A stretch of 64,000 nucleotides of DNA from Cyanobium sp. M30B3 (GTDB lineage: Bacteria; Cyanobacteriota; Cyanobacteriia; PCC-6307; Cyanobiaceae): contig CP073761.1 in NCBI GenBank assembly GCA_018399015.1, positions 992,001-1,056,000 on the forward strand. The letters run 5' to 3'. Below are positions 33,349 through 50,117 of the stretch, piece by piece. Every line of letters begins with the position of its first letter. The stretch's first letter is position 1. The translations under genes were made by a program, and so were the position numbers. Under the pieces are notes generated by a model that had not been told where the DNA came from, ran no database searches, and worked only from the letters and a program-made list of their open reading frames with translations.

Positions 33349-36065
33349 CCAGCGGGTCCGCCGGGCTGGCCGGCTCCGCCGAGGGGAGTTCGGAGGCCCG
33401 GCGCATCGCCGAGCGCGACAGCGGCCAGGTTTCCTGGGACCTGTGGGGCAGTTACCTGCCCGAGCGCCAGTGGGGCACGGTGCGGGAGGACTACTCCGCC
33501 GATGCCGACGCCTGGACCTCCTTCCCCCACGACCATGCCCGCTCACGGGCGTACCGCTGGGGAGAGGACGGCCTGCTGGGGATCTGCGATGCCCAGTGCC
33601 GCCTCTGTTTCTCCCTGGCCCTCTGGAACGGCCAGGACCCGATCCTCAAGGAGCGGCCCTACGGCCTGGGCAACCCGGAGGGCAACCACGGCGAGGACAT
33701 CAAGGACTACTTCTTCCATCTCGCCAACACCCCCACCCACAGCTTCATGCGGGGGCTCTACAAGTACCCCCAGACGCGCTTCCCCTACGAGCGACTGCTG
33801 GCGGAAAACGCCGCGCGCGGCCGCCAGCAGCCGGAGTACGAGCTGGTGGACACGGGCATCTTCGCGGAGGGGCGCTATTTCGATGTGTTCATCGAGTACG
33901 CCAAGGCCTCGGCCAACGACCTGCTCATCCGCATCCGGGCGATCAACCGCGGTCCCGATGCCGCTCCCCTCACCCTGCTGCCCACCCTCTGGCTGCGCAA
34001 CACCTGGAGCTGGGGCTATCCCGATGAAGCCCGCGAGCCCTTGCGGCTGAAGGGTGATCAGCTCCGCAGCCCGGCGCGGGGCGAACTGCCGGCCTATGGG
34101 CTGCTGCTCGACCCTGAGGCCGCCTGCCCTTCGCTGCGCTGGCTGTTCACCGACAACGAGACGAACCACCAGCGGCTCTACGGCCAGCCCAATCCCACCC
34201 CCTTTCAGAAGGACGGCTTCCACCGCTGGCTGATCGATGGCGAGGCGGGGGCCGTGAATCCGGCCGGGGAGGGCACCAAGGCGGCGCCGCTGCTCCAGCG
34301 CACCCTCCAGCCCGGCGAGACCTGGACCGTGCAGCTGCGCCTGTGCCAGGCCGGGGAGCAGACCGCCGACAGGGACGCCGCCGGGGCCTTCGGCCCTGCA
34401 TTTGCGGCGGTGTTCGCGGCCCGGGAGCAGGAGTGGCAGGCCTACATGGCCCAGTGCGTGCCGGGGCTCGCGGCGGAGGATCGCCTGATCCACAACAGCG
34501 CCATCGCCGGGCTGCTGTGGTGCAAGAAGTACTACGGCTGGAGCGTGCTGCGCTGGCTGGAGGGGGACCCCACCCAGCCGCCGCCGCCGCGAGCGCGGCT
34601 GCATACCGAAACAGCCCAGTGGAGCCGGCTGCACGCCCACAACGTGATCTCCATGCCGGATGCATGGGAATACCCCTACTTCTGCCAGTGGGATCTGATG
34701 TTCCAGGCGATGGCCTTCACGATCGTGGATCCGGCCACCGCCAAGCAGCAGGCGATGCTGCTGCGCTCCCCCCATTTCACCGCTCCCAACGCCCAGACGC
34801 CGGCCTACGAGTGGGCCCTCTCCGACGCCAATCCGCCGATCGGCGCCTGGGCGGTGATGCGCATCTTCCAGATCGAGCGCCGCCAGAATGGCGGCAGCGG
34901 TGATCTGGCCTTTCTGCGCGCCGCCCTGCGCAAGCTCACCCTGGAATACGGCTGGTGGGCCAACCGCAACGACCGTTCCGGCGACAACGTGTTCGAGGGG
35001 GGCTTCCTCGGCCTGGACAACATCGCTGTGTTCGACCGGCGCTTTCCCCTCGCCGATGGCAGCCACATCGAGCAGTGCGACGGCACGGCCTGGATGGCCT
35101 CGCTGAGCCTCAATCTGCTCAACATCGCCGTGGAGCTGAGCCGGGAAGAGCCGGAATACGCCGATCTGTGTGAGCGCTTCGTGCTGGATTTCGTGCAGCT
35201 GGCCCTCACCCTCAATGCCCCGTCCGAGCGGGACTACCTGAACTGGGATGAGCAGGACGGCTTCTACTACGACGTGATCAAACGCCCCGATGGCAGCACC
35301 GATTACCTGCGCACCCGCTCGGTGTCAGGCCTGGTGCCGCTGCTGGCCGTCGCCAGCTACGACGTGGAGACGGTGGCCCGCCTGCCGGTGCTGGACGTGC
35401 TGCAGAGCATGGCCTGGTTCGTGCACGAACGCACCACGCCCACCTGGCTGGCCGCCAACCTGGGCCAGTGGCACAACGACCGCCTGCTATTCACCCTGGT
35501 GCCGGAGGGTCGCCTGCGGCGCATCTGCGAACGGCTGTTCGATGAGGAGGAGTTTCTCTCTCCCTATGGCATCCGGGCGCTCTCCAAGGTGTATGAGCAA
35601 GCCCCTTACCGCTACAGCGAGGGCAGCCAGAGTGACGTGCTCGCCTACAGCCCGGCCGACAGCCCGGTGGCGATGTTCGGCGGCAACTCCAACTGGCGCG
35701 GACCGGTGTGGATGCCGATCAACTTCCTGCTGATTGAATCGCTGCAGAAATATGCTCACTTTTACGGCGACAGCTTCAAGGTGGAATTTCCCACCCGCTC
35801 CGGCAACTGGATCACCCTCTGGGACGCTTCGCTGCAGCTGCAATCCCGCCTGGTGAACATCTTCCGGCGCGACGGCCAGGGGAGGCGGGCGTTCAACGGT
35901 GATGTGGAGCTGTTCCAGAGCGACCCCCACTGGCGGGATCTGATCCTGTTCAACGAATACTTCCATGGCGATAACGGCCGCGGCGTGGGTGCCTCGCACC
36001 AGACCGGCTGGACAGCCCTGGTGGCCAAGATGATCAACCAACTGAACCGTTATCCCACCGGTTGA
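33345..36065 (+). CDS. GH63-like glucosidase (MGH1 domain)
   Basis: 906 aa. Soluble, no signal peptide. An N-terminal beta-rich part (ERDSGQVSWDLWGSYLPERQWGTVREDYS, then SFPHDHARSRAYRWGEDGLLG) precedes an (alpha/alpha)6 barrel of the MGH1/GH63 type. Barrel motifs are PYFCQWDLMFQAMAF (the WD general-acid region), FLGLDNIAVFDR, CDGTAWMASLSLNLL, NSNWRGPVWMPINFLLIESL and GVGASHQTGWTALVAK. Family members cleave alpha-glucosidic bonds in oligosaccharides, glycerate glucosides or glycans; the substrate here cannot be assigned. It sits between two GMC flavoprotein genes, overlapping the first by four bases, so its product may be passed to an oxidoreductase. Confidence 0.88.
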   Translation: MTSGSAGLAGSAEGSSEARRIAERDSGQVSWDLWGSYLPERQWGTVREDYSADADAWTSFPHDHARSRAYRWGEDGLLGICDAQCRLCFSLALWNGQDPILKERPYGLGNPEGNHGEDIKDYFFHLANTPTHSFMRGLYKYPQTRFPYERLLAENAARGRQQPEYELVDTGIFAEGRYFDVFIEYAKASANDLLIRIRAINRGPDAAPLTLLPTLWLRNTWSWGYPDEAREPLRLKGDQLRSPARGELPAYGLLLDPEAACPSLRWLFTDNETNHQRLYGQPNPTPFQKDGFHRWLIDGEAGAVNPAGEGTKAAPLLQRTLQPGETWTVQLRLCQAGEQTADRDAAGAFGPAFAAVFAAREQEWQAYMAQCVPGLAAEDRLIHNSAIAGLLWCKKYYGWSVLRWLEGDPTQPPPPRARLHTETAQWSRLHAHNVISMPDAWEYPYFCQWDLMFQAMAFTIVDPATAKQQAMLLRSPHFTAPNAQTPAYEWALSDANPPIGAWAVMRIFQIERRQNGGSGDLAFLRAALRKLTLEYGWWANRNDRSGDNVFEGGFLGLDNIAVFDRRFPLADGSHIEQCDGTAWMASLSLNLLNIAVELSREEPEYADLCERFVLDFVQLALTLNAPSERDYLNWDEQDGFYYDVIKRPDGSTDYLRTRSVSGLVPLLAVASYDVETVARLPVLDVLQSMAWFVHERTTPTWLAANLGQWHNDRLLFTLVPEGRLRRICERLFDEEEFLSPYGIRALSKVYEQAPYRYSEGSQSDVLAYSPADSPVAMFGGNSNWRGPVWMPINFLLIESLQKYAHFYGDSFKVEFPTRSGNWITLWDASLQLQSRLVNIFRRDGQGRRAFNGDVELFQSDPHWRDLILFNEYFHGDNGRGVGASHQTGWTALVAKMINQLNRYPTG

Positions 36066-36121: not shown

Positions 36122-37756
36122 ATGGCCCAGGCCCCTTCCCCGGTTTCTCTCACCGGTGTGCACGCCTCCGTGCCGCCGGTCGCGGCCCAGCTGGAGGTGG
36201 GCCACGGCGATCACTTTGACGTGGTGATCATCGGCAGTGGCGCCGGCGGCGGCACCCTGGCCCGGGCCCTGGCTCCCACGGGCCTCAGGATCCTGGTGCT
36301 GGAGCGCGGTGACTGGCTGCCCCAGGAACCCCAGAACTGGGATGCCGAAGAGGTGTTTCAGAAGAACCGCTACGTGTCCAAGGACACCTGGTTCGACAAG
36401 CACGGCAAGCCCTTCCAGCCGGGCAGCCACTACTTCGTGGGCGGCGCCACCAAGATGTACGGCGCCGCCCACTTCCGCCTGCGCCAGCAGGATTTCGAAG
36501 AGATGGCGCACCACGACGGCATCTCGCCGGCCTGGCCCCTGCGCTACAGCGACTTCGAGCCCTGGTATCAGCGGGCCGAGGAGATGTACCAGGTGCATGG
36601 CCAGCGCGGGGAGGACCCCACCGAGCCCCCCTGCAGCGGGCCCTATCCCCATCCGCCGGTGGCCCACGAGCCGCGCATGCAGAAGCTGGTGGATGACCTG
36701 CGGGCGGCGGGACTCCACCCCTTCCATGCCCCCAGCGGCGTGCTGCTCGATGAGGCGAGCATGCCCTTCAGCCGCTGCCGTCGCTGCAACTGCTGCGACG
36801 GCTTCCCCTGCCTGGTGCATGCCAAGAGCGACGCCGAGGTGCTGGGGGTGCGGCCTGCCCTGGCCAGTGCGAACGTGTCGCTGCTCACCCGCGCCGAAGT
36901 GCGCCGGCTGCACACCGACCCCTCGGGCCGCTCGGTGACGGCGGTGGACCTGCAGCGCGATGGCGAGTCCCTGCAGGTGAGCGGAGATGTGGTGGTGGTG
37001 AGCTGCGGGGCGGCCAACAGCGCCCGCCTGCTGCTGATGTCGGCCAACGACCGGCACCCGCGCGGCCTGGCCAATGGCTCCGACCGGGTGGGCCGCCACT
37101 ACATGTTCCACAACAGCAAGGCGATGGTGGCCCTGGCCCACGAGCCCAACACCACCGTGTTTCAGAAAACGGTGTCGATCAACGACTGGTATTTCGGCGA
37201 TGCCGAGTTCGCCTATCCGATGGGCAACATCCAGATGACCGGCAAGACCAACGGCACGATCATGAAGGGCTATGCGCCGCTGGAAACCTTCCTCATGCCG
37301 GGCTGGTCGATGGACAGGATCGCCGAACACGCCCTCGACTTCTGGATCTCATCGGAGGATCTGCCCGACCCGGACAACCGGGTGACGGTGGACGCCGAGG
37401 GGCGCATCCAGCTGAGCTACACCGCCAACAACCAGAGCGCCTCCAATCATCTGGTGAAGCGGCTCACCGCCATGCTCGACCGGCTCTATCTGCGCAACCA
37501 CCTGGTGGAGCGCCAGATCTACATCAAGAGCACGATGTCGATCGCCGCGGTGGGGCACCAGGCGGGCACCTGCCGCTTCGGCAGCGATCCGGCCACCTCG
37601 GTGCTGGATCTCCACTGCAAGGCCCACGAGCTCGACAACCTCTACGTGGTGGACACCAGCTTCATGCCCACCATCGGCGCGGTGAATCCCTCGCTCACGG
37701 CGATTGCCAATGCCCTGCGGGTGGCGGAGCATCTGCGCGGGCGGTTCGGCCGGTAG
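36122..37756 (+). CDS. GMC-type FAD oxidoreductase with Cys-rich insert
   Basis: 544 aa from ATG 36122; a TTG at 36062 extends the frame but has no support. FAD motif VVIIGSGAGGGTLARALAPTG near residue 38, FVGGATKMYGAAHFRL, and a complete catalytic pair: His479 in GHQAGTCRFG and Asn522 in NPSLTAIANAL. A cysteine-rich insert carries Cys219, 222, 224, 225 and 230 (CRRCNCCDGFPC) followed by HAKSDAEV. Related FAD-dependent sugar dehydrogenases use a Cys cluster nearby for iron-sulfur binding, so an electron-transfer centre is possible. No Tat or Sec signal. Probable sugar or polyol dehydrogenase acting with the GH63-like protein and the quinol oxidase; substrate unknown. Confidence 0.9.
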   Translation: MAQAPSPVSLTGVHASVPPVAAQLEVGHGDHFDVVIIGSGAGGGTLARALAPTGLRILVLERGDWLPQEPQNWDAEEVFQKNRYVSKDTWFDKHGKPFQPGSHYFVGGATKMYGAAHFRLRQQDFEEMAHHDGISPAWPLRYSDFEPWYQRAEEMYQVHGQRGEDPTEPPCSGPYPHPPVAHEPRMQKLVDDLRAAGLHPFHAPSGVLLDEASMPFSRCRRCNCCDGFPCLVHAKSDAEVLGVRPALASANVSLLTRAEVRRLHTDPSGRSVTAVDLQRDGESLQVSGDVVVVSCGAANSARLLLMSANDRHPRGLANGSDRVGRHYMFHNSKAMVALAHEPNTTVFQKTVSINDWYFGDAEFAYPMGNIQMTGKTNGTIMKGYAPLETFLMPGWSMDRIAEHALDFWISSEDLPDPDNRVTVDAEGRIQLSYTANNQSASNHLVKRLTAMLDRLYLRNHLVERQIYIKSTMSIAAVGHQAGTCRFGSDPATSVLDLHCKAHELDNLYVVDTSFMPTIGAVNPSLTAIANALRVAEHLRGRFGR

Positions 37757-39485: not shown

Positions 39486-39983
39486 TCAGTCGAGCGCCAG
39501 GTCGAGCAGATCGGCGATCAACAGGTTGTCGAGGGAGAACAGGCCGCCTCCGCAGCCGATCAGCACCAGGCACATCACCACATACATCGCCGCCTTCTCC
39601 CAGCTGGGGGGGTCCCCCACCCCCATCGGCCCGGCGTAGTCGCCTGCTGGGATCTGGTAGGGGTCGGGGGCGATGAAGGGAAAGCCGGAGCGGATCTCCA
39701 GCACCATGGCGTAGGCCATCGACACCAGGATCGCCAGGGCGGCCAGGGGGGTGAGCAGGCCGGGCAGCAGGGCGATGCCAGCGCCGAACATCGAGGCGGC
39801 GGAGAGGAAGCACAGCCAGCGGGGGGTGTTCAGGGCGGTGGCCCAGGTGTCCAGGTTGCGCAGCTTGGGCCAGCCATGGCGGATGAAGCACACGCCCAGG
39901 AACAGGCGCAGGAGCAGCAGGGCCGCCTGGGCGGCGGTTGAGGGGGCAGCCGGCACCAGCAGCTCCACCACCGTGATCTCCAT
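39486..39983 (-). CDS. DoxX-family membrane protein
   Basis: 165 aa from ATG 39983. Four membrane helices with DoxX features: LLLLRLFLGVCFIRHGWPKLRNL near residue 22, FLSAASMFGAGIALLPGLLTPLAALAILVSMAYAMVLEI, a loop with an unusual FPFIAPDPYQIPAGDYAGPMG, and MYVVMCLVLIGCGGGLFSLDNLL. DoxX proteins are often tied to quinone or thiol redox reactions, but this member is uncharacterised. It diverges from glgX with an 87-base spacer. The following two minus-strand genes may share its transcript. Confidence 0.88.
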   Translation of the reverse strand: MEITVVELLVPAAPSTAAQAALLLLRLFLGVCFIRHGWPKLRNLDTWATALNTPRWLCFLSAASMFGAGIALLPGLLTPLAALAILVSMAYAMVLEIRSGFPFIAPDPYQIPAGDYAGPMGVGDPPSWEKAAMYVVMCLVLIGCGGGLFSLDNLLIADLLDLALD

Positions 39984-40070
39984 GGGGCCCAGCCGGATCT
40001 GCCCTGCAACGTAGGCAGCAGGCCCCGCTCTGGCCACCATGGGCGGGTGACCCCACACCCGTGGCCGGCC

Positions 40071-42164
40071 ATGACCGATCCCCATCCGGCCCTCGCCGCC
40101 GGCAGCAGCGCGCCCCTGGGCGCGACGCTCCGGCAGGGTGGGGTGAATTTCAGCATCCATGCACGCCAGCACGAGCGCGTGGAGCTCTGTCTGTTCCAGG
40201 GGGTCGACGATCCCGAGCCGGCCGCGGTGATCCCCTTCGCCGGCGAGCGCCACCACAGCGGCTCCTACTGGCATGGCTGGCTGGCGGGGGTGGAGCCGGG
40301 CCAGCTCTACGGCTATCGCCTCCCCAGCGATCCCGACTGCCTGCTGCTCGATCCCTACGCCCTGGCGGTGGCGGTGCCGCAGGGCTACGGCCGGCAGCGG
40401 GGCCAGCGCCGCCAGGGTGCGCCTGGCGCGGGGGGTGGCTGGGCCGGCGCGATCAAGAGTGTGGTGGCCGACCCCAGCCGCTACGACTGGCAGGGCGATC
40501 GGCCCCTGCGCCGGCCCGCCCGCGAGACGGTGATCTACGAGCTGCACCTGCGCGGCTTCACGGCCGATCCCAGTTCCGGCGTGCCCCGGGAGCGGGCCGG
40601 CACCTACGCCGGGCTGATCGAGAAGATCCCCTACCTGCAGCAGCTGGGCATCACCGCCGTGGAGCTGCTGCCGGTGTTCGCCTTCGATGCCCAGGCGGCA
40701 CCGCCAGGGCTGAGCAACCACTGGGGCTACCAGCCCATCAGCGTGCTGGCTCCCCACCCGGGCTATGCCGCCGGCAGCGATCCGCTGGCGGCCCTCGATC
40801 AGTTCCGCGATCTGGTGAAGGCCCTGCACCGCGCCGGCATCGAAGTGATCCTCGATGTGGTGTTCAACCACACCGCCGAGGGCTCGATGGCCGGCCCGGG
40901 GCCGGGACCCACCCTCTCCTACCGGGGGCTGGCCCCCCGCGACTACTACCTGCTGCAGAGCGATGGCGGCGGCGGCCTGGCTGATCTGGACGTGACCGGC
41001 TGCGGCAACACCCTCAACGCCAACAACCCGGTGGTGCGCCGCCTGATCCGCCACAGCCTGCGCCACTGGGTGGAGCACATGCACGTGGATGGCTTCCGCT
41101 TCGATCTGGCCGCCGTGCTCTCCCGCGATGAGGAGGGCAACCCCGAGCCGCGGCCGCCGATCCTGCTGGATCTCGACAGCGATCCTGTGCTGGCCGGCAC
41201 CAAGCTGATCGCCGAGGCCTGGGATGCCGCCGGCCTCTACGAGGTGGGCAGCTTCGTGGGCGAGCGCTGGCAGGAGTGGAACGGCCGCTTTCGCGACGAC
41301 CTGCGCCACTTCCTCAAGGGCGATGCGGGCTTTGCCTGGGCGGCGGCCCAGCGCCTGATCGGCAGCCCGGATGTGTACGGGCAGCGCGGCCGGGAGGCGG
41401 AGCTGAGCGTGAACTTCATCACCTGCCACGACGGCTTCACCCTGGCCGACTGGGTGAGCTACGACAGCAAGCACAACGGGGCCAACGGCGAGGACAACCG
41501 CGATGGCTCCGATGACAACGCCAGCTGGAACTGCGGGGTGGAGGGTCCCACGCAGGATCCGGAGGTGCTGGCCCTGCGCAGCAGGCAGATGCGCAACGCC
41601 CTCTGCCTGCTGCTGCTTTCCGCCGGCACGCCGATGCTGGCCATGGGCGATGAGGTGGGCCGCAGCCAGCGGGGCAACAACAACGCCTACTGCCAGGACA
41701 ATCCGCTCAGCTGGTTCGACTGGACGCTGGTGGAGCGCCAGGCCGACCTGCTGCGCTTCACCCGCACCCTGAACGCCTTCCGCCAGCGGCGGGATGTGGT
41801 GCTCGATCACGACAACCTCTCCCTGGCCGAACTGCTGCACCGCTGTGCGCTGGAATGGCACGGCGTGGAGCCCTTCCAGCCCGACTGGGGGCCCGATTCC
41901 CATTCCCTGGCTGTGGGCTACACCAGCGTTGGCCATCGCTTCCGCCTGCACCTGATGGTGAATGCCTGGTGGCAGCCGCTGCGGTTCGCCCTGCCGTCCA
42001 CGGGCCTGGCGGATGGGCGTTGGCACCGCTGGATCGACACCGCCCTGCCCAGTCCGGACGACATCGTGGCCTGGGGGGACACGCCGCCCCTGGCCGACCA
42101 CGCCTACGCCGTGCAGCCCCGCTCGGTGGTGGCGCTGCTGGGGCGGGTGGCTGAGGCCAGCTGA
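40071..42164 (+). CDS. glgX: Glycogen debranching enzyme (isoamylase type)
   Basis: 697 aa from ATG 40071; GTG 40047 is an alternative. Cleaves alpha-1,6 branches of glycogen in the cytoplasm. An N-terminal CBM48-type domain (SAPLGATLRQGGVNFSIHA, SGSYWHGWLAGVEPGQLYGYR) precedes a GH13 barrel with DVVFNHTAEG, the nucleophile Asp345 in HVDGFRFDLA, the acid/base Glu382 in LIAEAWD and the stabilising Asp454 in CHDGFTLADWVSY. KHNGANGEDNRDGSDDNASWNCG and NNNAYCQDN are typical of GlgX/TreX. Length is normal. It overlaps the ClC channel gene as TGATG (42162-42166). Supplies linear maltodextrins for the sugar metabolism genes nearby. Confidence 0.95.
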   Translation: MTDPHPALAAGSSAPLGATLRQGGVNFSIHARQHERVELCLFQGVDDPEPAAVIPFAGERHHSGSYWHGWLAGVEPGQLYGYRLPSDPDCLLLDPYALAVAVPQGYGRQRGQRRQGAPGAGGGWAGAIKSVVADPSRYDWQGDRPLRRPARETVIYELHLRGFTADPSSGVPRERAGTYAGLIEKIPYLQQLGITAVELLPVFAFDAQAAPPGLSNHWGYQPISVLAPHPGYAAGSDPLAALDQFRDLVKALHRAGIEVILDVVFNHTAEGSMAGPGPGPTLSYRGLAPRDYYLLQSDGGGGLADLDVTGCGNTLNANNPVVRRLIRHSLRHWVEHMHVDGFRFDLAAVLSRDEEGNPEPRPPILLDLDSDPVLAGTKLIAEAWDAAGLYEVGSFVGERWQEWNGRFRDDLRHFLKGDAGFAWAAAQRLIGSPDVYGQRGREAELSVNFITCHDGFTLADWVSYDSKHNGANGEDNRDGSDDNASWNCGVEGPTQDPEVLALRSRQMRNALCLLLLSAGTPMLAMGDEVGRSQRGNNNAYCQDNPLSWFDWTLVERQADLLRFTRTLNAFRQRRDVVLDHDNLSLAELLHRCALEWHGVEPFQPDWGPDSHSLAVGYTSVGHRFRLHLMVNAWWQPLRFALPSTGLADGRWHRWIDTALPSPDDIVAWGDTPPLADHAYAVQPRSVVALLGRVAEAS

Positions 42165-43585
42165 TGACCGCCCGGATCGCCGTGCTGATCTGGCTGCTGC
42201 TGGGCATCGGCATGGCCCTGCTGGAGTGGCCCTACCAGGCCCTCTCCGAGCTGGGCTTCCGCCTGCAGCGCTGGGGTTGGTCGCTGGCGGGGCTGGAGAG
42301 CGGCGGGGGCGGCGTTGGTGCCGAACCCCATCTGGGCCAGGCCCTGCTGCTGGTGTTCGGGGCCAGCGCCCTGCTGTTCTGGCTGGCCTGGGGTCCCCTG
42401 GCCGCGGGCCGGGGCGGTGGGGTGGCGCCCCTGCTGGCCCTCGATCGGGCCGCGCCGCCCCTGCCGGCCGACGCCGAGGCCCTCTGGCTGGAGAAGCTCA
42501 GCCTGCGCAGCCAGCTGGTGCGCCTGCCCCTGATGCTGCTCACCCACGCCGGGGGGCTGGCGGTGGGGGTGGAGTCACCGTCGGTGGCGATCGGGGCCAG
42601 CGCCTCCCTGGCGATCCGGCGGCGGTGGCCCCGCTTCCGCCCCCTGGCGGCGCTGCCGCTGCCGGCCGTGGCCGTGATCGGCGGGGCCGCCGGTCTGGGG
42701 GTGGCCTTCCGTTCGCCGCTGCTGGCCGTCAGCTATGCCCTGGAGGAAGTGGGTCGGCGCAGCGGGGTGGGTCTGCTGGGGCCGACGCTGCTGGTGTCGG
42801 GTGCCGGCGCCCTGCTGAGCACCACCCTGGGCCAGCCGGCCCGGCTCTCGGGCCTGCAGTTCGGCGCTCTGGCGGCCGATCTCTGGGGCTGGGCGGCCCT
42901 GTTCACCCTGGCCGGAGCGCTGCTGGGCGGCCTGCTGGTGCGGCTGGCGATCGGCGCGGCGGCGAGGGTGCAGCGGCTGATGGGCCGGCGCCGGTTGCTG
43001 GGCGCCCTGCTGCTGGCCCTGGCGCTCAGCGTCCTGGCGGTGCTGAGCGCGGGTCTGAGCCTCAACGACGGTTCGCTTTCCCTGGCCCCTGCCCTGGCGG
43101 GGCAGAGCGGCGGGCCTCCCCTCACCCTGTTGTGGCGGGGCCTGGCCACCCTGGTGAGCCTGGCGGCCGGGGCGCCTGGTGGGCTGATGCACGACAGCAT
43201 GACCCTGGGAGCCCTGCTCACCTCCCTGCTGCCGGGGCAGAGCGACCTGTCCACTGCCCAGCTGGGCCAGCTGGCGGCGGTGGGCGCGGTGGCCCTGTTC
43301 GCCGCAGCCCAGGGCACCCCCCTGTTCTGCGCCGCGTTTGTGTTCACCCTGCAGGGGGATCCCCAGCTGCTGCCGGCCCTGCTGCTGGCGAGCGCCGTGA
43401 GTGATGCCCTCAGCACGGGGCTGCGCGGGGAGGGTTGGAACGGCCGGCAGTGCGCCGCCCTGCTGCAGCCCCTCAGCGCACCACCAGCTGCAGGCGATGG
43501 CCGTCGGGATCGCTCACCTGCAGCCCGGCCCGAAAGCCCAGCTCCCGAGCTTCCGGGGGAGACAGAGCCACCACCGCGGGGCTGA
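42164..43585 (+). CDS. ClC-family chloride channel or transporter
   Basis: 473 aa, about ten membrane segments. ClC landmarks are VGVESPSVAIGASASLAI near residue 128 (equivalent to GREGPxVxxG, keeping the gating Glu) and GVAFRSPLLAVSYALEE near 178 (equivalent to AxFxxPLxGxLFxxEE). Later come LVSLAAGAPGGLMHDSMTLGALLTSLL (the GxFxP-like region) and AVALFAAAQGTPLFCAAFVF. It transports Cl- or another anion across the membrane; channel versus H+-exchange mode cannot be decided. The C-terminal 37 residues are Pro/Arg-rich and lie over the 3' end of the GlcG/VOC gene (113-base convergent overlap). Coupled to glgX by overlapping start and stop. Confidence 0.88.
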   Translation: MTARIAVLIWLLLGIGMALLEWPYQALSELGFRLQRWGWSLAGLESGGGGVGAEPHLGQALLLVFGASALLFWLAWGPLAAGRGGGVAPLLALDRAAPPLPADAEALWLEKLSLRSQLVRLPLMLLTHAGGLAVGVESPSVAIGASASLAIRRRWPRFRPLAALPLPAVAVIGGAAGLGVAFRSPLLAVSYALEEVGRRSGVGLLGPTLLVSGAGALLSTTLGQPARLSGLQFGALAADLWGWAALFTLAGALLGGLLVRLAIGAAARVQRLMGRRRLLGALLLALALSVLAVLSAGLSLNDGSLSLAPALAGQSGGPPLTLLWRGLATLVSLAAGAPGGLMHDSMTLGALLTSLLPGQSDLSTAQLGQLAAVGAVALFAAAQGTPLFCAAFVFTLQGDPQLLPALLLASAVSDALSTGLRGEGWNGRQCAALLQPLSAPPAAGDGRRDRSPAARPESPAPELPGETEPPPRG

Positions 43586-44870
43586 GCAGCCGGCCGCCAT
43601 GGGGCTCGATCGCCGCGGCGATCGCTTCAAGCTGCCCGATCTCCTGGCCCACCACCAGGCGCAGCTGGCCGTGGGCCCGGTCCTGGGGGCCCAGATCGGC
43701 GGGCATGGGCCGGCCGCCCTCCGGGCTGCGGTAGTCGAGGCACTCGATGCCGGCGCCACTGGGGCAGCGGTGGCTGGTGATGCGCACCTGGGTGCTGGTG
43801 AGACCATCGAGCCGGTCCTGCTCGGGCCCCTTGTTGATGCCATCGCCGCCCAAGCGCAGGCCCAGGAGCTGGTTGTAGAAGCGGCAGCTGCGTTCGGTGT
43901 CGCTGATGCCGATGGCGCTGTGGTCGATACCCAGGAACAGGCCGGTGTTTTCAGGGCTGTGCCAGCGGGCGTCGCCCTTATCTGGCGGGAATTGCAGCAG
44001 CTCCAGGCAGTGTCCTTCGGGGCCGTGCAGTTTGTAGGCCTCGATGCCGGCGGCGGCGCTGTTCCAGTCGGGCAGGCGCTGGGGCGCGGCGGAGATGGCC
44101 TGCAGGGCGCCGGCGGCGATCGCCTGGCGCAGCGAGGCGCTGGCCCGCTCCAGATCCCGCACCACCACGCAGATGTGCTGGAACCACAGGTCGTTGCTGC
44201 GGCTATCTGCGGGAAAGGGGCGGCCCGGCCGTTGGCCGGGGGGCAGGGCCTGTACCTCCAGCAACTCCAGTCGTTCGCGGCCCAGGGCCAGGCGCACCAG
44301 CTTGAGCTGGGCCCCCGGCAGGCCGATCAGGCTGGCGTAGCCAGGGCCCGGCTCGATCGCATCGAGGCGGCGGCAGCCCAGCTGGCTGCAGAAGAAGGCG
44401 GCGCAGGCCTCGGCGTCGGCGCAGCTGAAGCTCACCGCCTCCAGGTGCGGCCAGGGGGCCAGGGCGCCGGCGCCGGCCGCGGCGATCTGGCCGTCGCGCT
44501 GGGGCGTCATTCCCGACACGCCCAGGCCGCCCAGCAGCTCACCACCCCAGCGCAGGGCGATGCCGCCGCCCATGGCTGCCGCCGGCTGGCCCAGGGCCGG
44601 GGCCAGCTGCAGCAGGGCCGGCCGCTCGCCATTGATGGCCGCCTCCAGACCGGCGGTGTCGCTGCCCGTGAGGGCGGCCATGCGGGCCTTGGCGATCGCC
44701 GCCTCGGCGGCGGCGGGGCTGGCGCCATCGAGGCGCCGGAAGGCCACCAGCCGGCCGCCTCCGTCCACCACCGCGGCGGCCACCCGGGAGCCGTCCAGTC
44801 GGGCCTCGGCCAGGGCGGCCGCCAGCAGGCGCTCGGCGTCAGCGAGTTCCAGAACGAAGGCGGATCGCAT
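43473..44870 (-). CDS. GlcG/HbpS-like domain fused to two VOC domains
   Basis: 465 aa from ATG 44870; the longer open frame upstream is not protein-like. Residues 1-138 are a GlcG/HbpS (DUF336) domain: AERLLAAALAEA, VAAAVVDGGGRLVAFRRLDGA, AIAKARMAAL, GGGIALRWGGELLGGLGVSG. Residues 142-295 form a vicinal-oxygen-chelate unit with candidate metal ligands His232 and Glu290. Residues 313-465 form a second VOC unit with His317 and Glu376, but Gln461 replaces the last usual Glu. VOC proteins include glyoxalases and dioxygenases; GlcG domains bind heme or small ligands. I know of no described protein with this exact layout. It is the last gene of the RidA-cupin-SMP30-Nif11 operon, five bases after the Nif11 stop. 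Confidence 0.85.
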   Translation of the reverse strand: MRSAFVLELADAERLLAAALAEARLDGSRVAAAVVDGGGRLVAFRRLDGASPAAAEAAIAKARMAALTGSDTAGLEAAINGERPALLQLAPALGQPAAAMGGGIALRWGGELLGGLGVSGMTPQRDGQIAAAGAGALAPWPHLEAVSFSCADAEACAAFFCSQLGCRRLDAIEPGPGYASLIGLPGAQLKLVRLALGRERLELLEVQALPPGQRPGRPFPADSRSNDLWFQHICVVVRDLERASASLRQAIAAGALQAISAAPQRLPDWNSAAAGIEAYKLHGPEGHCLELLQFPPDKGDARWHSPENTGLFLGIDHSAIGISDTERSCRFYNQLLGLRLGGDGINKGPEQDRLDGLTSTQVRITSHRCPSGAGIECLDYRSPEGGRPMPADLGPQDRAHGQLRLVVGQEIGQLEAIAAAIEPHGGRLLSPAVVALSPPEARELGFRAGLQVSDPDGHRLQLVVR

Positions 44871-44875
44871 CGCGC

Positions 44876-45133
44876 TCAGCCCCACACGATCCGCATCAGC
44901 CAGAGGTGGCCCTCCAGCTCCACGCCGGCGGCGGCCGCTTCCAGATCGCCCTCGCCCAGGCGCAGGGTGGCCTCGGCCTGGTGCTTCACCAGATCCACGC
45001 CGCTGAACTGGAAGCCCAGTTCGGCCCCCAGGGCGGCGATGGCGTTGAGATTGGGGCAGCTGTTCAGCTGGGCCAGCAAGTCTGGATCGCCCTTGGCCTG
45101 CCGCAGAAAGGCTTCGAGCTGGGGATTGGCCAT
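44876..45133 (-). CDS. Nif11 domain protein
   Basis: 85 aa. The first 50 or so residues match the Nif11 pattern: an N-terminal helix NPQLEAFLRQAKGDPDLLAQLNSC, then ALGAELGFQFSGVDLVKHQ, ending with a short acidic-hydrophobic region (LEGHLWLMRIVWG). In many cyanobacteria Nif11 sequences are leader peptides of ribosomally made natural products. Here there is no Gly-Gly cleavage site followed by a Cys/Ser/Thr-rich core, and no modification enzyme lies in the window. It is thus more likely a free-standing Nif11 protein. It sits between the SMP-30 gene (36-base gap) and the GlcG/VOC gene (5-base gap). Confidence 0.85.
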   Translation of the reverse strand: MANPQLEAFLRQAKGDPDLLAQLNSCPNLNAIAALGAELGFQFSGVDLVKHQAEATLRLGEGDLEAAAAGVELEGHLWLMRIVWG

Positions 45134-45169
45134 GGGGGCACGAGGTGGGGGGGGGAGCGATGAGGGGAT

Positions 45170-46102
45170 TCAGCGTTGCCAGGTGGCGCCGCGGGTGCCC
45201 GTGAACAGGGCATAGAGGGCGGTGGAGGCGCAGAGGAACAGGCGGCTGCCGTAGCGGTCGCCGAAGCAGAGGTTGCTCACGCGCTGCGGCACCAACACCT
45301 TGCCCAGCAGGGTGCCGTCGGGGGCAATCACGTGCACGCCGTCGGCGGCGCCACACCACAGGTTGCCGTGTTCATCCACCCGGAAGCCATCGGCCCAGCC
45401 TGGCGTGATTTTGTGGAACACCTCGCCACCGCTGAGGCTGCGGCCGTCGCTGTTCACCTGGAAGCGGCGGATGTATTGACGCGGCTCGCTGGCCCCCGGG
45501 GCGCCGGATTCGGCTACATACAGCACCTGTTCATCGGGCGAGAAGGCGAGGCCGTTGGGGCCGTCGAAATCGGTGGCCACCGCCACCGCCGCCATAGCGC
45601 CCTCGCCGCTGGCGGGATCGAGCCGGTAGAGGGCGGGTGGCTGCTCAGATTCCTGGCGGCCGCCCTCGTAGTCGTTCATCAGGCCGTAGAGCGGATCGCT
45701 GAACCAGATCGAGCCGTCGCCCTTCACCACCACGTCGTTGGGGGCATTGAGGCGCTGGCCCCGGGCCTGGCTCACCAGGGTGGTGCTGGTGCCGTTGTGC
45801 TCCAGGCGGGTGAGGCAGCGGCTGCGGTGGTGGCACTGGATCAGCCGCCCCTGCAGGTCGCGGGTCTGGCCGTTGGCAAACTGCGATGGCTCCAGGAAGG
45901 TGCTCACCCCGTGCTGTTCGCTCCAGCGCAGGGTGCGGTTGCCAGGGATGTCGCTGAACAGCAGGCACCGGTGGTCGCCGAACCACACCGGCCCCTCCAG
46001 CCAGCGGAAGCCTTCAGCCAGCAGCTCCAGCTCGGCGTTGAACAGCACCAGCTGGTCGAAGCGTGGGTCGTAACTCTCCGTGCAGGTGGAGGGCTGGCTC
46101 AT
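45170..46102 (-). CDS. SMP-30/gluconolactonase family lactonase
   Basis: 310 aa, six-bladed beta-propeller. The metal-site residues of SMP-30 are all recognisable: Glu in LEGPVWFGDH, Asn in LNAPNDVVVKGDG, Asn in FDGPNGLAFSPDEQVLYVAES, and Asp in PGWADGFRVDEHGNLWCG. These enzymes hydrolyse sugar lactones such as glucono-1,5-lactone with a divalent metal. No signal peptide, so probably cytoplasmic. Its start overlaps the cupin stop as ATGA (46099-46102). A divergent glucose-1-dehydrogenase-like gene 1.1 kb away would supply its expected substrate. Confidence 0.93.
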   Translation of the reverse strand: MSQPSTCTESYDPRFDQLVLFNAELELLAEGFRWLEGPVWFGDHRCLLFSDIPGNRTLRWSEQHGVSTFLEPSQFANGQTRDLQGRLIQCHHRSRCLTRLEHNGTSTTLVSQARGQRLNAPNDVVVKGDGSIWFSDPLYGLMNDYEGGRQESEQPPALYRLDPASGEGAMAAVAVATDFDGPNGLAFSPDEQVLYVAESGAPGASEPRQYIRRFQVNSDGRSLSGGEVFHKITPGWADGFRVDEHGNLWCGAADGVHVIAPDGTLLGKVLVPQRVSNLCFGDRYGSRLFLCASTALYALFTGTRGATWQR

Positions 46103-46560
46103 CGGAAGAATCCCGGCGCTGCCTGTTTCCAGGCGTCGTCGTTGCGCTGGATGATCAACTGCACGCAGGGTTCATCCCCCACCTGGGCGGAGAGATGGCC
46201 CCGGTGGCCCTCCGGGCTGGCGATGCAGCCCTGGTCGCCGCCGAAGGAATACGCGCCGGCGCCCATGATCGCGATCTGGCCATCCATGCTCTGCACCGAC
46301 CAGGCCCCCTTGAGCACATAGATCCACTTGGGCACGTGGTTTTCATGCCAGTCGGCCGTCCAGCCCACCGGCAGGTAGGTCACAAAGGCATTGCCCTGAT
46401 CAAACAGCGGCCGGGAAAACTGGGGGGAGTCGCCGGGGCCCAGCTGGCCGAGCTGAAAATCGCTGATGGTGCACTCCTGCTGGCGGCTGATGCCGTCGTC
46501 GCCTGTCCAGAGGTGCCAGTAGGTCTCGGGTTGGGGCGCCAGGCTGAAGGGGTCGCTCAT
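46099..46560 (-). CDS. Cupin-domain protein
   Basis: 153 aa from ATG 46560. A single cupin barrel is visible: a first motif with YLPVGWTADWHENHVPKWIYVLKGAWSV (His residues in the metal-site position, plus the G-x-W turn) and a second with GAGAYSFGGDQGCIASPEGHRGHL, carrying a further His. The N-terminus has YWHLWTGDDGISRQQECTISDF. Such small cupins can be isomerases, dioxygenases or sensors of sugar-derived ligands; no specific reaction can be assigned. It lies between ridA (25-base gap) and the SMP-30 gene (4-base overlap) and is clearly part of that operon. Confidence 0.85.
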   Translation of the reverse strand: MSDPFSLAPQPETYWHLWTGDDGISRQQECTISDFQLGQLGPGDSPQFSRPLFDQGNAFVTYLPVGWTADWHENHVPKWIYVLKGAWSVQSMDGQIAIMGAGAYSFGGDQGCIASPEGHRGHLSAQVGDEPCVQLIIQRNDDAWKQAAPGFFR

Positions 46561-46585
46561 GGCTTTGGGGTTCAGGCTTTGGAGT

Positions 46586-47014
46586 TCAGTCCTTGATGGC
46601 GATGGCCGAGACCTCCAGCTGGATGCCCAGCACCAGGGCGGACACCTGCACCACGGCGCGGGAGGGGTAGGCCTGGGCGTCGGGGAAATACTCCTGCCAC
46701 ACCGCATCAAAGGTGTCGAGAGTGTTGATGTCGGTGAGATACACCGTGGCGCTCACCAGGTGCTCGAAGCCGAAACCGGCCTCCTGCAGCACGGCTTCCA
46801 TGTTGCGCATCACCTGGCGGGATTCGAGGGTGATGTCGCCATCCCCCACCTTGAGGCTGGTGATCGGATCCACCGGCAGTTGGCCGGTGATGAACAGGGT
46901 ATTGCCATGTTGGAAGCCCTGGCTGTAGGAAGCCACAGGCTTGGGGAAGCGTTCGCTGTGGATGGCTCGGCGCAGGGCTGGCGCTGGCATGGGAAAACCG
47001 CTGGCAGTCGCCAT
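46586..47014 (-). CDS. RidA/YjgF family protein
   Basis: 142 aa from ATG 47014; the frame extends to 47110 without similarity. RidA proteins hydrolyse reactive enamine/imine intermediates released by PLP enzymes. Family features are VASYSQGFQHGNTLFITGQLPVDP, SRQVMRNMEAVLQEAGFGFEHLVSATVYLTDI and the signature PSRAVVQVSALVLGIQLEVSAIA, whose Arg matches the substrate-binding Arg of active members. First gene of the minus-strand operon leading through cupin, SMP-30 and Nif11 to GlcG/VOC. Diverges from the glucose dehydrogenase gene across a 176-base spacer. Confidence 0.92.
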   Translation of the reverse strand: MATASGFPMPAPALRRAIHSERFPKPVASYSQGFQHGNTLFITGQLPVDPITSLKVGDGDITLESRQVMRNMEAVLQEAGFGFEHLVSATVYLTDINTLDTFDAVWQEYFPDAQAYPSRAVVQVSALVLGIQLEVSAIAIKD

Positions 47015-47190
47015 GAACCGTAGGGATTGAATGCCGATGGGAATTGTTTTGTCATCGATGGATGGGGCATCGGTGATGAATTGCTGATGGATGCACTCCG
47101 TTCTGTGCACGGGTGTTGCAGTTGGCTGCGCTGGGGTTGGCGGCTGTTTAGCTTTCGCAGGCTTTCCCCGTGCTGCGGCCCCTATCTGCC

Positions 47191-47997
47191 ATGACCCAGG
47201 TTAATCCCTACGCCCAGGAAACCCTGGCTAACCTGCTCAAGGGCAAGGTGATCATCGTCACCGGTGGCAACAGCGGCATTGGCAAATCGATCGTGGAGGA
47301 GGTGGCCCGCCTGGGCGCCAAGGTGGTGATCGACTACCGCTCCCATCCCGAAGCCACTGAGGCGATGGAAGAGGAGATCGGTGAACTGGGCGGCAGCAGT
47401 TTCGGTGTGCAGGCCGATGTGGGCAAGCTCGACGATTTGCAGCGGTTGGTGCAGGCGGCGGTGGACCGCTATGGCCGCCTTGATGTGATGGTGAACAACG
47501 CTGGCATTGAAACACGCACCTCGATTCTCGACACCACCCCCGATGATTTCGACAAGGTGTTGAATGTGAACCTGCGCGGTGTGTTCTTCGCCACCCAGTA
47601 TGCCGCCAAGCAAATGATTGCCCAGGGCAGCGGTGGCCGCATCATCAACATTTCATCGGTGCATGAGGACTGGCCCATGCCCAACAACACGCCCTACTGC
47701 GTGGCCAAGGGGGGCGTGCGCATGCTGACGCGCACCGCCGGCGTGGAGTTGGCGTCCAAGGGGGTCACGATTGTGAATGTGGGGCCCGGGGCGGTGGCCA
47801 CGCCGATCAACGACTCCACCATGAACAACCCCGAGCTGCTGGCCAAGCTCAACGCGGCGATTCCGATGGGGCGCATGGCCCAGCCGTCGGAAATCGCCAA
47901 GGTGGTGGCCTTCCTGGCCAGCGATGCCGCCAGCTATATCACCGCCACCAGCATCTTCGCCGACGGCGGCATCATGCAGAGCAGCCCCGGCCTGTGA
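47191..47997 (+). CDS. Glucose 1-dehydrogenase-like SDR
   Basis: 268 aa from ATG 47191 (GTG 47170 also in frame). Classical SDR: VIIVTGGNSGIGKSIVEEVARLG, ADVGKLDDLQRLV, VNNAGIETR, active-site Ser region IINISSVHEDWPMPNN and YCVAKGG (YxxxK), then NVGPGAVATPIN and a C-terminal YITATSIFADGG. The GPGAVATPIN and FADGG elements resemble Bacillus glucose 1-dehydrogenase, so oxidation of glucose to gluconolactone with NAD(P) is the favoured reaction. Substrate specificity is not proven by sequence. It diverges from the ridA operon, which encodes a gluconolactonase-like enzyme, and overlaps the pore-protein gene as GTGA. Confidence 0.88.
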   Translation: MTQVNPYAQETLANLLKGKVIIVTGGNSGIGKSIVEEVARLGAKVVIDYRSHPEATEAMEEEIGELGGSSFGVQADVGKLDDLQRLVQAAVDRYGRLDVMVNNAGIETRTSILDTTPDDFDKVLNVNLRGVFFATQYAAKQMIAQGSGGRIINISSVHEDWPMPNNTPYCVAKGGVRMLTRTAGVELASKGVTIVNVGPGAVATPINDSTMNNPELLAKLNAAIPMGRMAQPSEIAKVVAFLASDAASYITATSIFADGGIMQSSPGL

Positions 47998-48737
47998 CAC
48001 CTGGTGGCGGGACCTCCAGCCGGGAGTACACCCGAGCGGACGTCGAGCGGCTGCGCAAGCGCCATCGCGGTTACCAGCTCACCCTGGCCGTGGAAGTGCT
48101 GCTGGTTCTCTCTCTTCCCCTGGCGGAGCTGTGGCCCTGGCTGTTGTCGGCGCTGTTGGTATCGCTGGCGGTGGTGTTGATCGTGTTTCTCAGCCGCTAT
48201 TCGCTGCTGCGGCGGTCGCGCTCGGTTGTGTATGTCTTCGGTGGCCTGGCCATCACGCTGGAGCTGCTCTGGCAGGTGCTGCGCCAGCTGGATCCGCGCT
48301 GGAGTACGGCTCTCGCTGTGCCGCACGTGCTGGTGTGGGTGGTGTTTCTCACCCTGGTGCTGCTGCGCAAGGTGAAGAGCCTGGTGCGGGAGCCGTTCGT
48401 CACGGTGTCGGTGGTGATGGGCGCCGCCAGCGGCTACCTGCTGATCGGCATCGCCGGCGGCCTGCTGTTCACGGCGCTGTGGGTGTATCAGCCGGAGGCG
48501 TTCACGCTCTCCGCCCTGCCGGCGGCGGGCAGCCAGGCCGGCGGCGGCCCGCTGGGCATTGAGCCGGCCCTGATGGCGGGAGCGATGAACCTGCTCACCA
48601 CCGCGGGCACCAACCTGCTGAACCCGCGCAATGTGACCGCCCAGGTGATCAGTTCGGTGATCACCGTGGCGGGCCAGCTGTATGTGGCGATCCTGATCGC
48701 CTTAAGTCTGGGCCGCTTCCACCGGCGGCGGCACTGA
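47994..48737 (+). CDS. Ion-channel-like membrane protein with degenerate filter
   Basis: 247 aa from GTG 47994. A basic N-terminus (YTRADVERLRKRHRGYQ) is followed by about five to six membrane helices. The C-terminal region has the two-helix pore layout of potassium-channel-family proteins, with a last helix ISSVITVAGQLYVAILIALSLGRF closely resembling cyanobacterial two-TM K+ channels. At the filter position, where TxGYGD is expected, it reads TTAGTNLLNP (residues 202-211), so K+ selectivity is unlikely. It overlaps the glucose dehydrogenase stop and its 3' end overlaps the convergent NDH-2 gene by 36 bases. Function unknown. Confidence 0.75.
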   Translation: MTPGGGTSSREYTRADVERLRKRHRGYQLTLAVEVLLVLSLPLAELWPWLLSALLVSLAVVLIVFLSRYSLLRRSRSVVYVFGGLAITLELLWQVLRQLDPRWSTALAVPHVLVWVVFLTLVLLRKVKSLVREPFVTVSVVMGAASGYLLIGIAGGLLFTALWVYQPEAFTLSALPAAGSQAGGGPLGIEPALMAGAMNLLTTAGTNLLNPRNVTAQVISSVITVAGQLYVAILIALSLGRFHRRRH

Positions 48738-50117
48738 GGCCAGTTCCCGCCGCTCCAGGCCCACCTCCACGCCCATGTGCTGGCCGGCCCGGCCGGTGAT
48801 CACCAGGGCGGCGCGCTGGTTGGTGGCGATCTGCCACAGCCACTTGGTGAGCAAGGTGAGGCGGTTCTCGGTGTCGGGCATGAACGCCAGGTGGGCCAGG
48901 CCCCACACCAGCCAGCCGGGGAAGCCGCTCAGCCGCAGGCCGCGCAGGTCGGCCACGGCGAAGGTGCGACCGATCACCGCCATGCTGCCGAAATCGACAA
49001 AGCGGAACGGGGCATGCTCGCGGCCCTGGCAGCGGGCCAGGATGTCGCGGGCCACCCAGGTGCCCATCTGCACCGCCGGACCAGCCATGCCGGGCAGGGG
49101 TTTGCCATCGGCGGTGTGGCTGTAGCTGCAGAGGTCGCCCACCACGCGGATCTCCGGATGGCCCGGGATCGAAAAGTCGGGCTGCACCACCACCCGGCCG
49201 CCCCGGTCCAGCTCGCAGCCGGTGTGCTCGGCCAGCAGTTTGCCCAGGTGGGAGGCACGCACGCCGGCGGTCCAGCACACGGTGCCCCCTTCCAGGCTGC
49301 GGGTGCTGCTGCTGCCATCGGCCAGCTTGTGGCTGAGGGTCACCACGCCGGACGCGATCGACTGCACCCGCCCGCCCAGCTCCAGCTCCACCCCCAGCGA
49401 CTGCAGGTTGCGGGCGGCGGCGGCCGAGAGGCTGGGGTGCATGGCCCGCAGCACCCGGTCGCCCGGGTCGATCAGCACCACCTTGCTGAGGCCGGGGTTG
49501 AGCTGTTTGAACTCGTTGGCCACCGCCTGGCGCATCAGGTCGGCCAGCGATCCGGCCAGCTCGCAGCCGGTGGGCCCGGCGCCGATCACCAGCACGGTCT
49601 GCAGCAGCTGGCGGCGCTGGGGGTCTGGGGTCTGTTCGGCCTCCTCCAGGGCCATCAGCACCCGCCGGCGGATCTCGTCGGCGTGTTCGATGATCTTCAT
49701 CGGCGGTGCCTCGGCCCGCCACTCCTCATGGCCGAAGTAGGTGCTGCCGGAACCGGTGGCCAGGATCAGGTGGTCGTAGGCGAAGCGGCGGTCGTTGAAC
49801 ACCACCTCCTTCGCCTTGGGGTCGATCTCCTCCACCTCCCCCAGCAGGATCTGGATGTTGGGGGCCTTGCCCAGCAGCTGGCGCAGCGGTGAGGCCACGT
49901 CGGCCTCCGACACCAGGCCCGAGGCCACCTGGTAGAGCAGCGGCTGAAACAGGTTGAAGTTGCGCTTGTCGATCAGCGTCACCCGCACCGGCTTGCCGCG
50001 CAGGGCCTGGGCCGCCTTCAGCCCTGCGAAACCGCCGCCCACGATCACCACATGGGGCAGTTCAGGGCTGGTGTTCCCCGGTGGGTCCAGTTCCAGGAAG
50101 AACCGTTCCGGCGCCAT
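48702..50117 (-). CDS. ndb: Type II NADH dehydrogenase (NDH-2)
   Basis: 471 aa. Single-subunit flavoenzyme transferring electrons from NAD(P)H to quinone without proton pumping. First dinucleotide fold HVVIVGGGFAGLKAAQAL with FAD, NLFQPLLYQVASG, the conserved LILATGSGSTYFGHE, the second fold VLVIGAGPTGCELAGSLAD for NAD(P)H, and the FAD-contact segment IRVVGDLCSYS followed by GMAGPAVQMGTWVARDI. The C-terminal amphipathic part (LSGFPGWLVWGLAHLAFM) is the usual membrane anchor. Acts upstream of a quinol oxidase such as the CtaCDE enzyme here. Converges on the channel-like gene. Confidence 0.95.
   Translation of the reverse strand: MAPERFFLELDPPGNTSPELPHVVIVGGGFAGLKAAQALRGKPVRVTLIDKRNFNLFQPLLYQVASGLVSEADVASPLRQLLGKAPNIQILLGEVEEIDPKAKEVVFNDRRFAYDHLILATGSGSTYFGHEEWRAEAPPMKIIEHADEIRRRVLMALEEAEQTPDPQRRQLLQTVLVIGAGPTGCELAGSLADLMRQAVANEFKQLNPGLSKVVLIDPGDRVLRAMHPSLSAAAARNLQSLGVELELGGRVQSIASGVVTLSHKLADGSSSTRSLEGGTVCWTAGVRASHLGKLLAEHTGCELDRGGRVVVQPDFSIPGHPEIRVVGDLCSYSHTADGKPLPGMAGPAVQMGTWVARDILARCQGREHAPFRFVDFGSMAVIGRTFAVADLRGLRLSGFPGWLVWGLAHLAFMPDTENRLTLLTKWLWQIATNQRAALVITGRAGQHMGVEVGLERRELASVPPPVEAAQT

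Follow-up and report, generated by a model that had tools for sequence, protein, structure and literature searches.

What could a RidA protein, a cupin, a sugar-lactone hydrolase, a Nif11-domain protein and a VOC enzyme be doing together in one cluster? This question is raised by a five-gene operon of the cyanobacterium Cyanobium sp. M30B3. It lies in the window analyzed here, i.e., the whole stretch of 64,000 nucleotides at positions 992001-1056000 of contig CP073761.1, part of a 3.18 Mb single-contig genome. The five open reading frames (ORFs) all lie on the minus strand, separated by 25, -4, 36 and 5 bases, as an earlier sequence-only reading had described; the products were assigned by family matches and, for the cupin, by fold. 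That reading proposed an oxidative glucose branch with built-in detoxification, or the turnover of an unusual metabolite. Our findings suggest that it had seen one operon of what is likely a quinone-linked sugar-oxidising respiratory module. With evenly balanced confidence, we propose that the five genes are the soluble half of this module, which would work with a terminal oxidase of the alternative respiratory terminal oxidase (ARTO) or bo3 type.

The system is real and recurrent. A lactonase search left 80 kept loci, 31 treated as cyanobacterial by title and identity (lactonases 75-91% identical to that of the window) and 49 others (56-66%), so that the cluster cannot be regarded as unique to this genome. 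Titles among the closest lactonase relatives include Cyanobium, Vulcanococcus and Synechococcaceae, and one member of the 31, titled Bifidobacterium (L020), is probably misbinned; the 49 others are titled nearly all Proteobacteria, with one Acidobacteria (L079). Component profiles were applied to all 80 loci, using a codon-usage gene caller in view of their high GC content, and genes within 9 kb of the lactonase were counted. The 31 cyanobacterial loci contained SDR in 30, cupin in 29, Nif11, VOC and DoxX in 28 each, HbpS in 26, RidA in 17 and the flavoprotein GMC1 in 15, flanks of about 8 kb having cut many of the last off. A fused-size HbpS-VOC gene call, as in the window, occurred in only 5 of the 31, and the fusion is thus a special case. 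In several relatives, DoxX directly follows the VOC gene and GMC1 is convergent to DoxX. The 49 other loci contained cupin in all, VOC in 47, DoxX in 46, GMC in 45 and SDR in 19, most commonly in the single-strand order GMC-DoxX-cupin-lactonase-VOC, and no RidA, Nif11 or HbpS was detected by profile in any of them. Several component misses fall on short contigs.

The core of the module is therefore a GMC flavoprotein, DoxX, cupin, lactonase and a two-domain VOC protein, and not the five genes originally named; RidA is ruled out as a core part by its counts (17/31 and 0/49). Since this core is constant in the 49 loci and RidA, Nif11 and HbpS were not found in any of them, these three are cyanobacterial accessories and the five-gene operon is the cyanobacterial edition of the module. 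The glucose-branch proposal survives in part, as a conserved operon plausibly tied to the oxidation of a sugar to a lactone. That unrelated genes have gathered here by chance would agree with the varying cyanobacterial gene order and the frequent absence of RidA, but the recurrence of one core on plasmids and in 49 loci outside the cyanobacteria contradicts it, and we consider it very improbable.

The lactonase scored 145.7 bits with SGL (PF08450; gathering score 26.3), and E36, N122, N183 and D238, which we take to be the Glu, Asn, Asn and Asp that bind metal and substrate in SMP-30, are invariant in all 25 aligned sequences. Additional SMP-30 paralogues, 33-37% identical, lie upstream of the lactonase in L015, L020, L027 and L031. 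The claim that both enzymes keep their active sites stands for SMP-30 and only partly for RidA. The latter passes TIGR00004 (118.3 bits, cut-off 106.25) and, in an alignment of 21 sequences (L029 and L101 being one record), retains the catalytic Arg105 in all; serine replaces Glu120 in 21/21, both positions following what we presume to be the archetypal numbering, and the other RidA of this genome has aspartate there. The case for a built-in detoxification by RidA is thus weak, since 14 of 31 cyanobacterial loci and all 49 others showed no RidA gene close to their lactonase and Glu120 is missing. The Nif11 protein matches the leader model TIGR03798 (55.5 vs. 32.3). We found no GG cleavage site and no variable core of a ribosomally synthesised and post-translationally modified peptide (RiPP) in it, and its tail is conserved in 33 sequences, with truncated or diverged exceptions (e.g., L028 and L031). 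A RiPP precursor is unlikely, given the conserved tail, the missing GG and the lack of a maturase among 16 window proteins scanned.

The fusion protein gave HbpS-like (94 vs. 25) and Glyoxalase (38 vs. 21) matches with Pfam/NCBIfam models. In its VOC part, H94, E152, H179 and E238 are invariant in 46/46 sequences and, judging from the family, may be four metal ligands. The VOC model (predicted local distance difference test, pLDDT, 96.5) has maize glyoxalase I (6bnx) as its best fold match (Z 24.1); part of the VOC sequence searched alone against PDB sequences gave only weak matches, among them FosA and methylmalonyl-CoA epimerase. Ring-cleaving enzymes, oxygenases and alcohol oxidases are known from the GMC, VOC and cupin families. 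It could therefore be argued that the cluster makes or degrades a non-sugar metabolite, with VOC and cupin cleaving or oxygenating a ring and GMC acting as an alcohol oxidase, and the VOC fold does also resemble dichlorohydroquinone dioxygenase (Z 21.7). The H-E-H-E set is nevertheless that of glyoxalase I and not the 2-His-1-carboxylate set of extradiol dioxygenases, and the glycosidase neighbours described below also speak against such a metabolite, so we judge this explanation improbable.

Which enzyme would produce the lactone is the next question. The window GMC protein exceeds the thresholds of both family domains (GMC_oxred_N 43.7 vs. 23; GMC_oxred_C 72.4 vs. 24.6). The solved structure closest to GMC1 by sequence is the FAD glucose dehydrogenase of B. 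cepacia (6a2u, E 9e-42), followed by fructose dehydrogenase. His479 and Asn522, presumably the catalytic pair, occur in 100% and 98%, respectively, of 57 rows kept out of 59 (L026_10 and L051_12, at most 45% identical, were dropped). The glucose-dehydrogenase-like SDR that was said to diverge from the operon is indeed there, and scores above the cut-off for the NCBIfam glucose 1-dehydrogenase PRK07231 (232 vs. 215) and under that of PRK08936 (252 vs. 420). This keeps alive a soluble NAD(P)-linked glucose branch, in which the SDR would form gluconolactone, SMP-30 would open it, RidA and VOC would clear side products, and the respiratory genes would be mere neighbours. Of the 31 cyanobacterial loci, 30 have the SDR near the lactonase and only 15 have GMC1, with the flank effect noted above; the SDR is also present in 19 of the 49 others. 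Outside cyanobacteria, GMC is the commoner of the two (45 vs. 19 of 49), and the failure to find RidA in those loci, the failure to find GntK and the repeated linkage to oxidases without CuA also weigh against an NAD(P)-linked branch, which appears rather unlikely. In our view, the main oxidase is GMC and not the SDR.

The linkage of the module to terminal oxidases was followed in a phylum-wide draw of 386 cyanobacterial genomes, at least 21 of which carry the cupin, with up to 10 candidates scored in each genome; accordingly, the module is accessory in cyanobacteria. Eighteen were kept; G133, G356 and G358, with weaker cupins and no lactonase, VOC, DoxX or GMC nearby, were set aside. In 13 of these 18, COX1 and the cupin are no more than 20 kb apart, namely in all nine genomes of the window's own family and in G123, G119, G161 and G054. 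For the nine genomes outside the family, it was seen within 12 kb in four, where a chance model expects 0.12; as G119 and G161 belong to one genus, these amount to about three independent cases (P about 2e-4). COX1 was also present in 4 of 38 non-cyanobacterial loci against 0.62 expected (P 0.004; the other 11, mostly short contigs, were left out), and L073 and L075 show other cyo subunits at the locus edge.

The CuA motif was missing from the CoxB encoded near the module or its cupin in 14/14 cyanobacterial genomes checked, comprising eleven with the lactonase near (the window, G366, G282, G215, G175, G324, G264, G336, G466, G431 and G054) and three with only part of the module near (G123, G119 and G161); the cox copy of G372 was left out. 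Seventeen other cox copies, from ten of these genomes and G300, have CuA in 14 cases and lack it in three. The CyoA beside the module also lacks CuA in six of seven non-cyanobacterial cases (L065, L075, L077, L121, L123 and L124), of which L075 and L121 are one species and the L124 subunit is only partly inside its locus; no subunit II was found within the loci L052 and L073. Qox/ARTO enzymes are described in a review as lacking CuA and receiving electrons from plastoquinol (PMC6616624), and another source calls the details of plasma-membrane respiration debatable (PMC7796093).

A census of 121 genomes of the family gave 29 lactonase matches, of which 23 (>430 bits) were counted as orthologues and six (223-399 bits) left out. 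All 23 genomes have at least two COX1 copies, compared to 73 of 121 overall (hypergeometric 2e-6, uncorrected for relatedness). We then picked 20 second-cox loci from the second COX1 copies among the matches listed, 18 of them in genomes without a lactonase orthologue. CoxB lacks CuA in 20/20, and in 20/20 coxC runs into the second flavoprotein gene, GMC2, at -4 to 63 bases measured to the nearest start codon; GH63 and GMC1 follow GMC2 in seven. In another cyanobacterium (G054, L134), a GMC gene starts 9 bases past coxC. This junction makes GMC2 the steady partner of the CuA-less coxBAC, upon which GH63-GMC1, DoxX, VOC and SDR, and then lactonase and cupin, are further layers. The constancy of the coxBAC-GMC2 pair, the highest in the family sample (20/20), would also be expected of an oxygen or redox sink, one that burns sugar to remove O2 or to relieve an over-reduced quinone pool by oxidation and discards the carbon product, and the gluconate-using genes are not clear. 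Such a sink leaves the conserved lactonase, cupin and VOC genes unexplained, and we give it little credence.

With gene content, gene order, recurrence, residue conservation and the missing CuA motif as observations, the substrate, electron route and reactions of the quinone-linked module may be proposed as follows. A neighbouring glycosidase (GH63-like here; GH15, GH39 or PF10091 elsewhere) would free a glucose-type sugar, which the FAD enzyme GMC1, and probably GMC2 too, would oxidise, most likely at C1, to a lactone. The electrons would pass to plastoquinone or ubiquinone, perhaps via DoxX, whose role as an electron carrier is suggested by its superfamily, and the quinol would feed a CuA-less oxidase, ARTO-type coxBAC in cyanobacteria or cyoABCD in proteobacteria. 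The SMP-30 enzyme would hydrolyze the lactone, and the two-domain VOC metalloenzyme, the cupin and the SDR would process the product or side products. The cupin scores below the gathering score of Cupin_2 (PF07883; 22.2 vs. 27.2), and its AlphaFold model matches cupin folds, the best being SznF (Z 10.0); it keeps a modified motif, H-x-N-x3-Q/K, and no informative solved relative was found by sequence or fold, although the lack of a closer match is no proof of anything. Its fold matches include vitamin-K carboxylase (Z 8.8, weak on its own), a membrane protein that uses quinol and has a jelly-roll domain, and DoxX and cupin may form a quinone-facing unit. For picocyanobacteria, we would tentatively go further, with somewhat less than even confidence: ARTO might be the terminal oxidase of a dedicated sugar dehydrogenase, with coxBAC-GMC2 as one operon, GMC1-DoxX as a membrane-attached quinone reductase feeding ARTO, and lactonase-cupin-VOC handling the product.

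The surroundings of the module in other organisms bear on both its substrate and its origin. Glycosidase genes accompany it in 10 of the 49 loci (GH15 in six, GH39 with PF10091 in three, GH63 in one) and in six of eight plasmid regions viewed, out of 18 plasmid records matching the cupin. GH15 and GH63 act with inversion and release glucose as the beta anomer, which is the one used by FAD glucose dehydrogenases, and this stereochemistry fits FAD sugar oxidation without proving it. A cyclic-glucan-synthase-like gene stands by the module in five loci (L049, L058, L065, L071 and L080; GH94, with PF10091 in L071), and some cyanobacteria outside the family (L118, L087, L088 and L091-L093) have the cupin near or beside a GH15 gene of the glucodextranase type. 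Genes of cyo lie beside the module in three of the eight plasmid regions, the GMC gene of Roseomonas overlapping cyoA by 4 bases. On an Acidiphilium plasmid (L122), the annotated lactonase is a short fragment past insertion sequence (IS) elements (14272-14583), and a CyoA-like piece precedes DoxX (8848-9507). The window lactonase shares 56-60% identity with three proteobacterial lactonases and only 43-45% with the enzymes from Nostoc, Gloeothece and L094; by this comparison, transfer between proteobacteria and picocyanobacteria is likely, and the plasmid copies offer a route.

In the window, the GMC, DoxX and terminal-oxidase genes lie 3-19 kb from the five-gene operon, with coxBAC, GMC2, the GH63-like hydrolase and GMC1 in this order on the plus strand (Table 1). 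The CLC channel ORF is convergent with the HbpS-VOC gene and overlaps it by 113 bases at its 3' end (43473-43585). Of the 31 cyanobacterial loci, 17 have an isoamylase-type debranching gene no more than 9 kb from the lactonase. A promoter and terminator scan gave no signal above shuffles, with no sigma70-like match in 47015-47190.

Table 1. Features of the module and its flanks, in window coordinates.
Feature	Position	Strand	Remarks
coxB (ARTO-type)	28525-29487	+	No CuA motif; start read by eye
coxA (COX1)	29549-31246	+	One of two COX1 copies in the genome
coxC	31251-31826	+	Start read by eye
GMC2 flavoprotein	31837-33348	+	10 bases downstream of coxC
GH63/MGH1-like glycoside hydrolase	33345-36065	+	4-base overlap with GMC2
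GMC1 flavoprotein	36122-37756	+	Core module gene; start read by eye
DoxX membrane protein	39486-39983	-	Core module gene
Glycogen-debranching (isoamylase-type) enzyme	40047-42164	+	Between DoxX and the operon
CLC channel ORF	42164-43585	+	Between DoxX and the operon
HbpS(GlcG)-VOC-VOC fusion	43473-44870	-	HbpS/GlcG 44457-44870; two-domain VOC (core) 43476-44456
Nif11-domain small protein	44876-45133	-	Conserved tail
SMP-30/gluconolactonase-like lactonase	45170-46102	-	Core module gene; 4-base overlap with cupin
Cupin, unnamed subfamily	46099-46560	-	Core module gene
RidA (Rid family)	46586-47014	-	Catalytic Arg kept, Ser at Glu120 position
Divergent intergenic region RidA/SDR	47015-47190		
SDR oxidoreductase, glucose-1-dehydrogenase-like	47191-47997	+	Divergent from RidA
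Type-2 NADH dehydrogenase-like protein	48702-50117	-	NDH2_C match below cut-off; close to SDR in several relatives

Several observations weigh against a quinone-linked, oxidase-coupled sugar oxidation. No COX1 was found near the cupin in five of the 18 genomes (G370, G330, G064, G300 and G328). Five of the nine genomes outside the family (G119, G161, G330, G064 and G300; loci L092, L093 and L095-L097) have a cupin with none of lactonase, VOC, DoxX and GMC up to 9 kb away, and two of these (G119 and G161, where GH15 and SDR genes accompany the cupin) belong to the four in which COX1 is close by. In most non-cyanobacterial loci, no oxidase is seen up to a distance of about 8 kb, and the subunit II beside the module in L067 has CuA, a counter-example. 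VOC, SDR and DoxX stand together with no lactonase or cupin nearby in L147, L159, L161 and L164; in two of these, the gap holds a DMT-type transporter, read by eye. The window GMC1 has three of the four aligned iron-sulphur cysteines of FAD glucose and fructose dehydrogenases, but C295 and C499 are the only ones conserved in more than 95% of the 57 rows, and as a set these cysteines do not appear to be kept across the family. The PRK07231 match of the SDR counts on the same side. GMC enzymes oxidise many alcohols, and a glucose-type sugar is a candidate substrate. In a search for a gluconate route, GntK was not found, Eda and Edd gave matches only under the cut-off, and one FGGY kinase passed it.

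The statement that no published system has this content agrees with our search of the open-licence literature, which, judged by titles and term counts, gave no description of such a gene set, and no paper among the matches listed joins ARTO and a GMC oxidoreductase. Quinone-linked sugar dehydrogenases are known in proteobacteria; to our knowledge, none is built with DoxX, cupin and VOC or tied to ARTO. If the proposal is true, ARTO gains an electron source that can be tested, sugar acquires a role in the respiration of photoautotrophic picocyanobacteria, and the orphan proteins DoxX, cupin and two-domain VOC, found together in Cyanobacteria, Proteobacteria, one Acidobacteria-titled locus and plasmids, have a function in common.

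Among known systems, the FAD glucose and fructose dehydrogenases of Burkholderia and Gluconobacter, which carry out membrane-respiratory sugar oxidation, share the same GMC catalytic subunit with a nearly full-length alignment. They differ in that DoxX, cupin, lactonase and VOC are constant neighbours here, the iron-sulphur cysteines do not appear to be kept family-wide, and no cytochrome or small subunit was seen among the window proteins scanned, no genome profile search for them having been made. SMP-30/gluconolactonases have the same beta-propeller family and four site residues, the closest solved chain being the putative gluconolactonase 3e5z, and here a cupin gene lies close by (29/31 and 49/49 loci). 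The two-domain glyoxalase I of maize has the same fold over 255 residues and one complete H-E-H-E set, whereas the VOC protein is only 16% identical to it and is fused to HbpS/GlcG in the window. The ARTO/Qox of cyanobacteria has the same coxBAC order and a CoxB without CuA, and is one of two cox copies in the genome; here, coxBAC runs into a GMC dehydrogenase gene (GMC2). Finally, a bo3-type cyoABCD, an oxidase type other than the cyanobacterial coxBAC, stands beside the same module in plasmid regions of Roseomonas, Caballeronia and Paraburkholderia and in L065 and L077. Different oxidase types beside one module suggest either several independent origins of the pairing or its persistence while one oxidase was exchanged for another.

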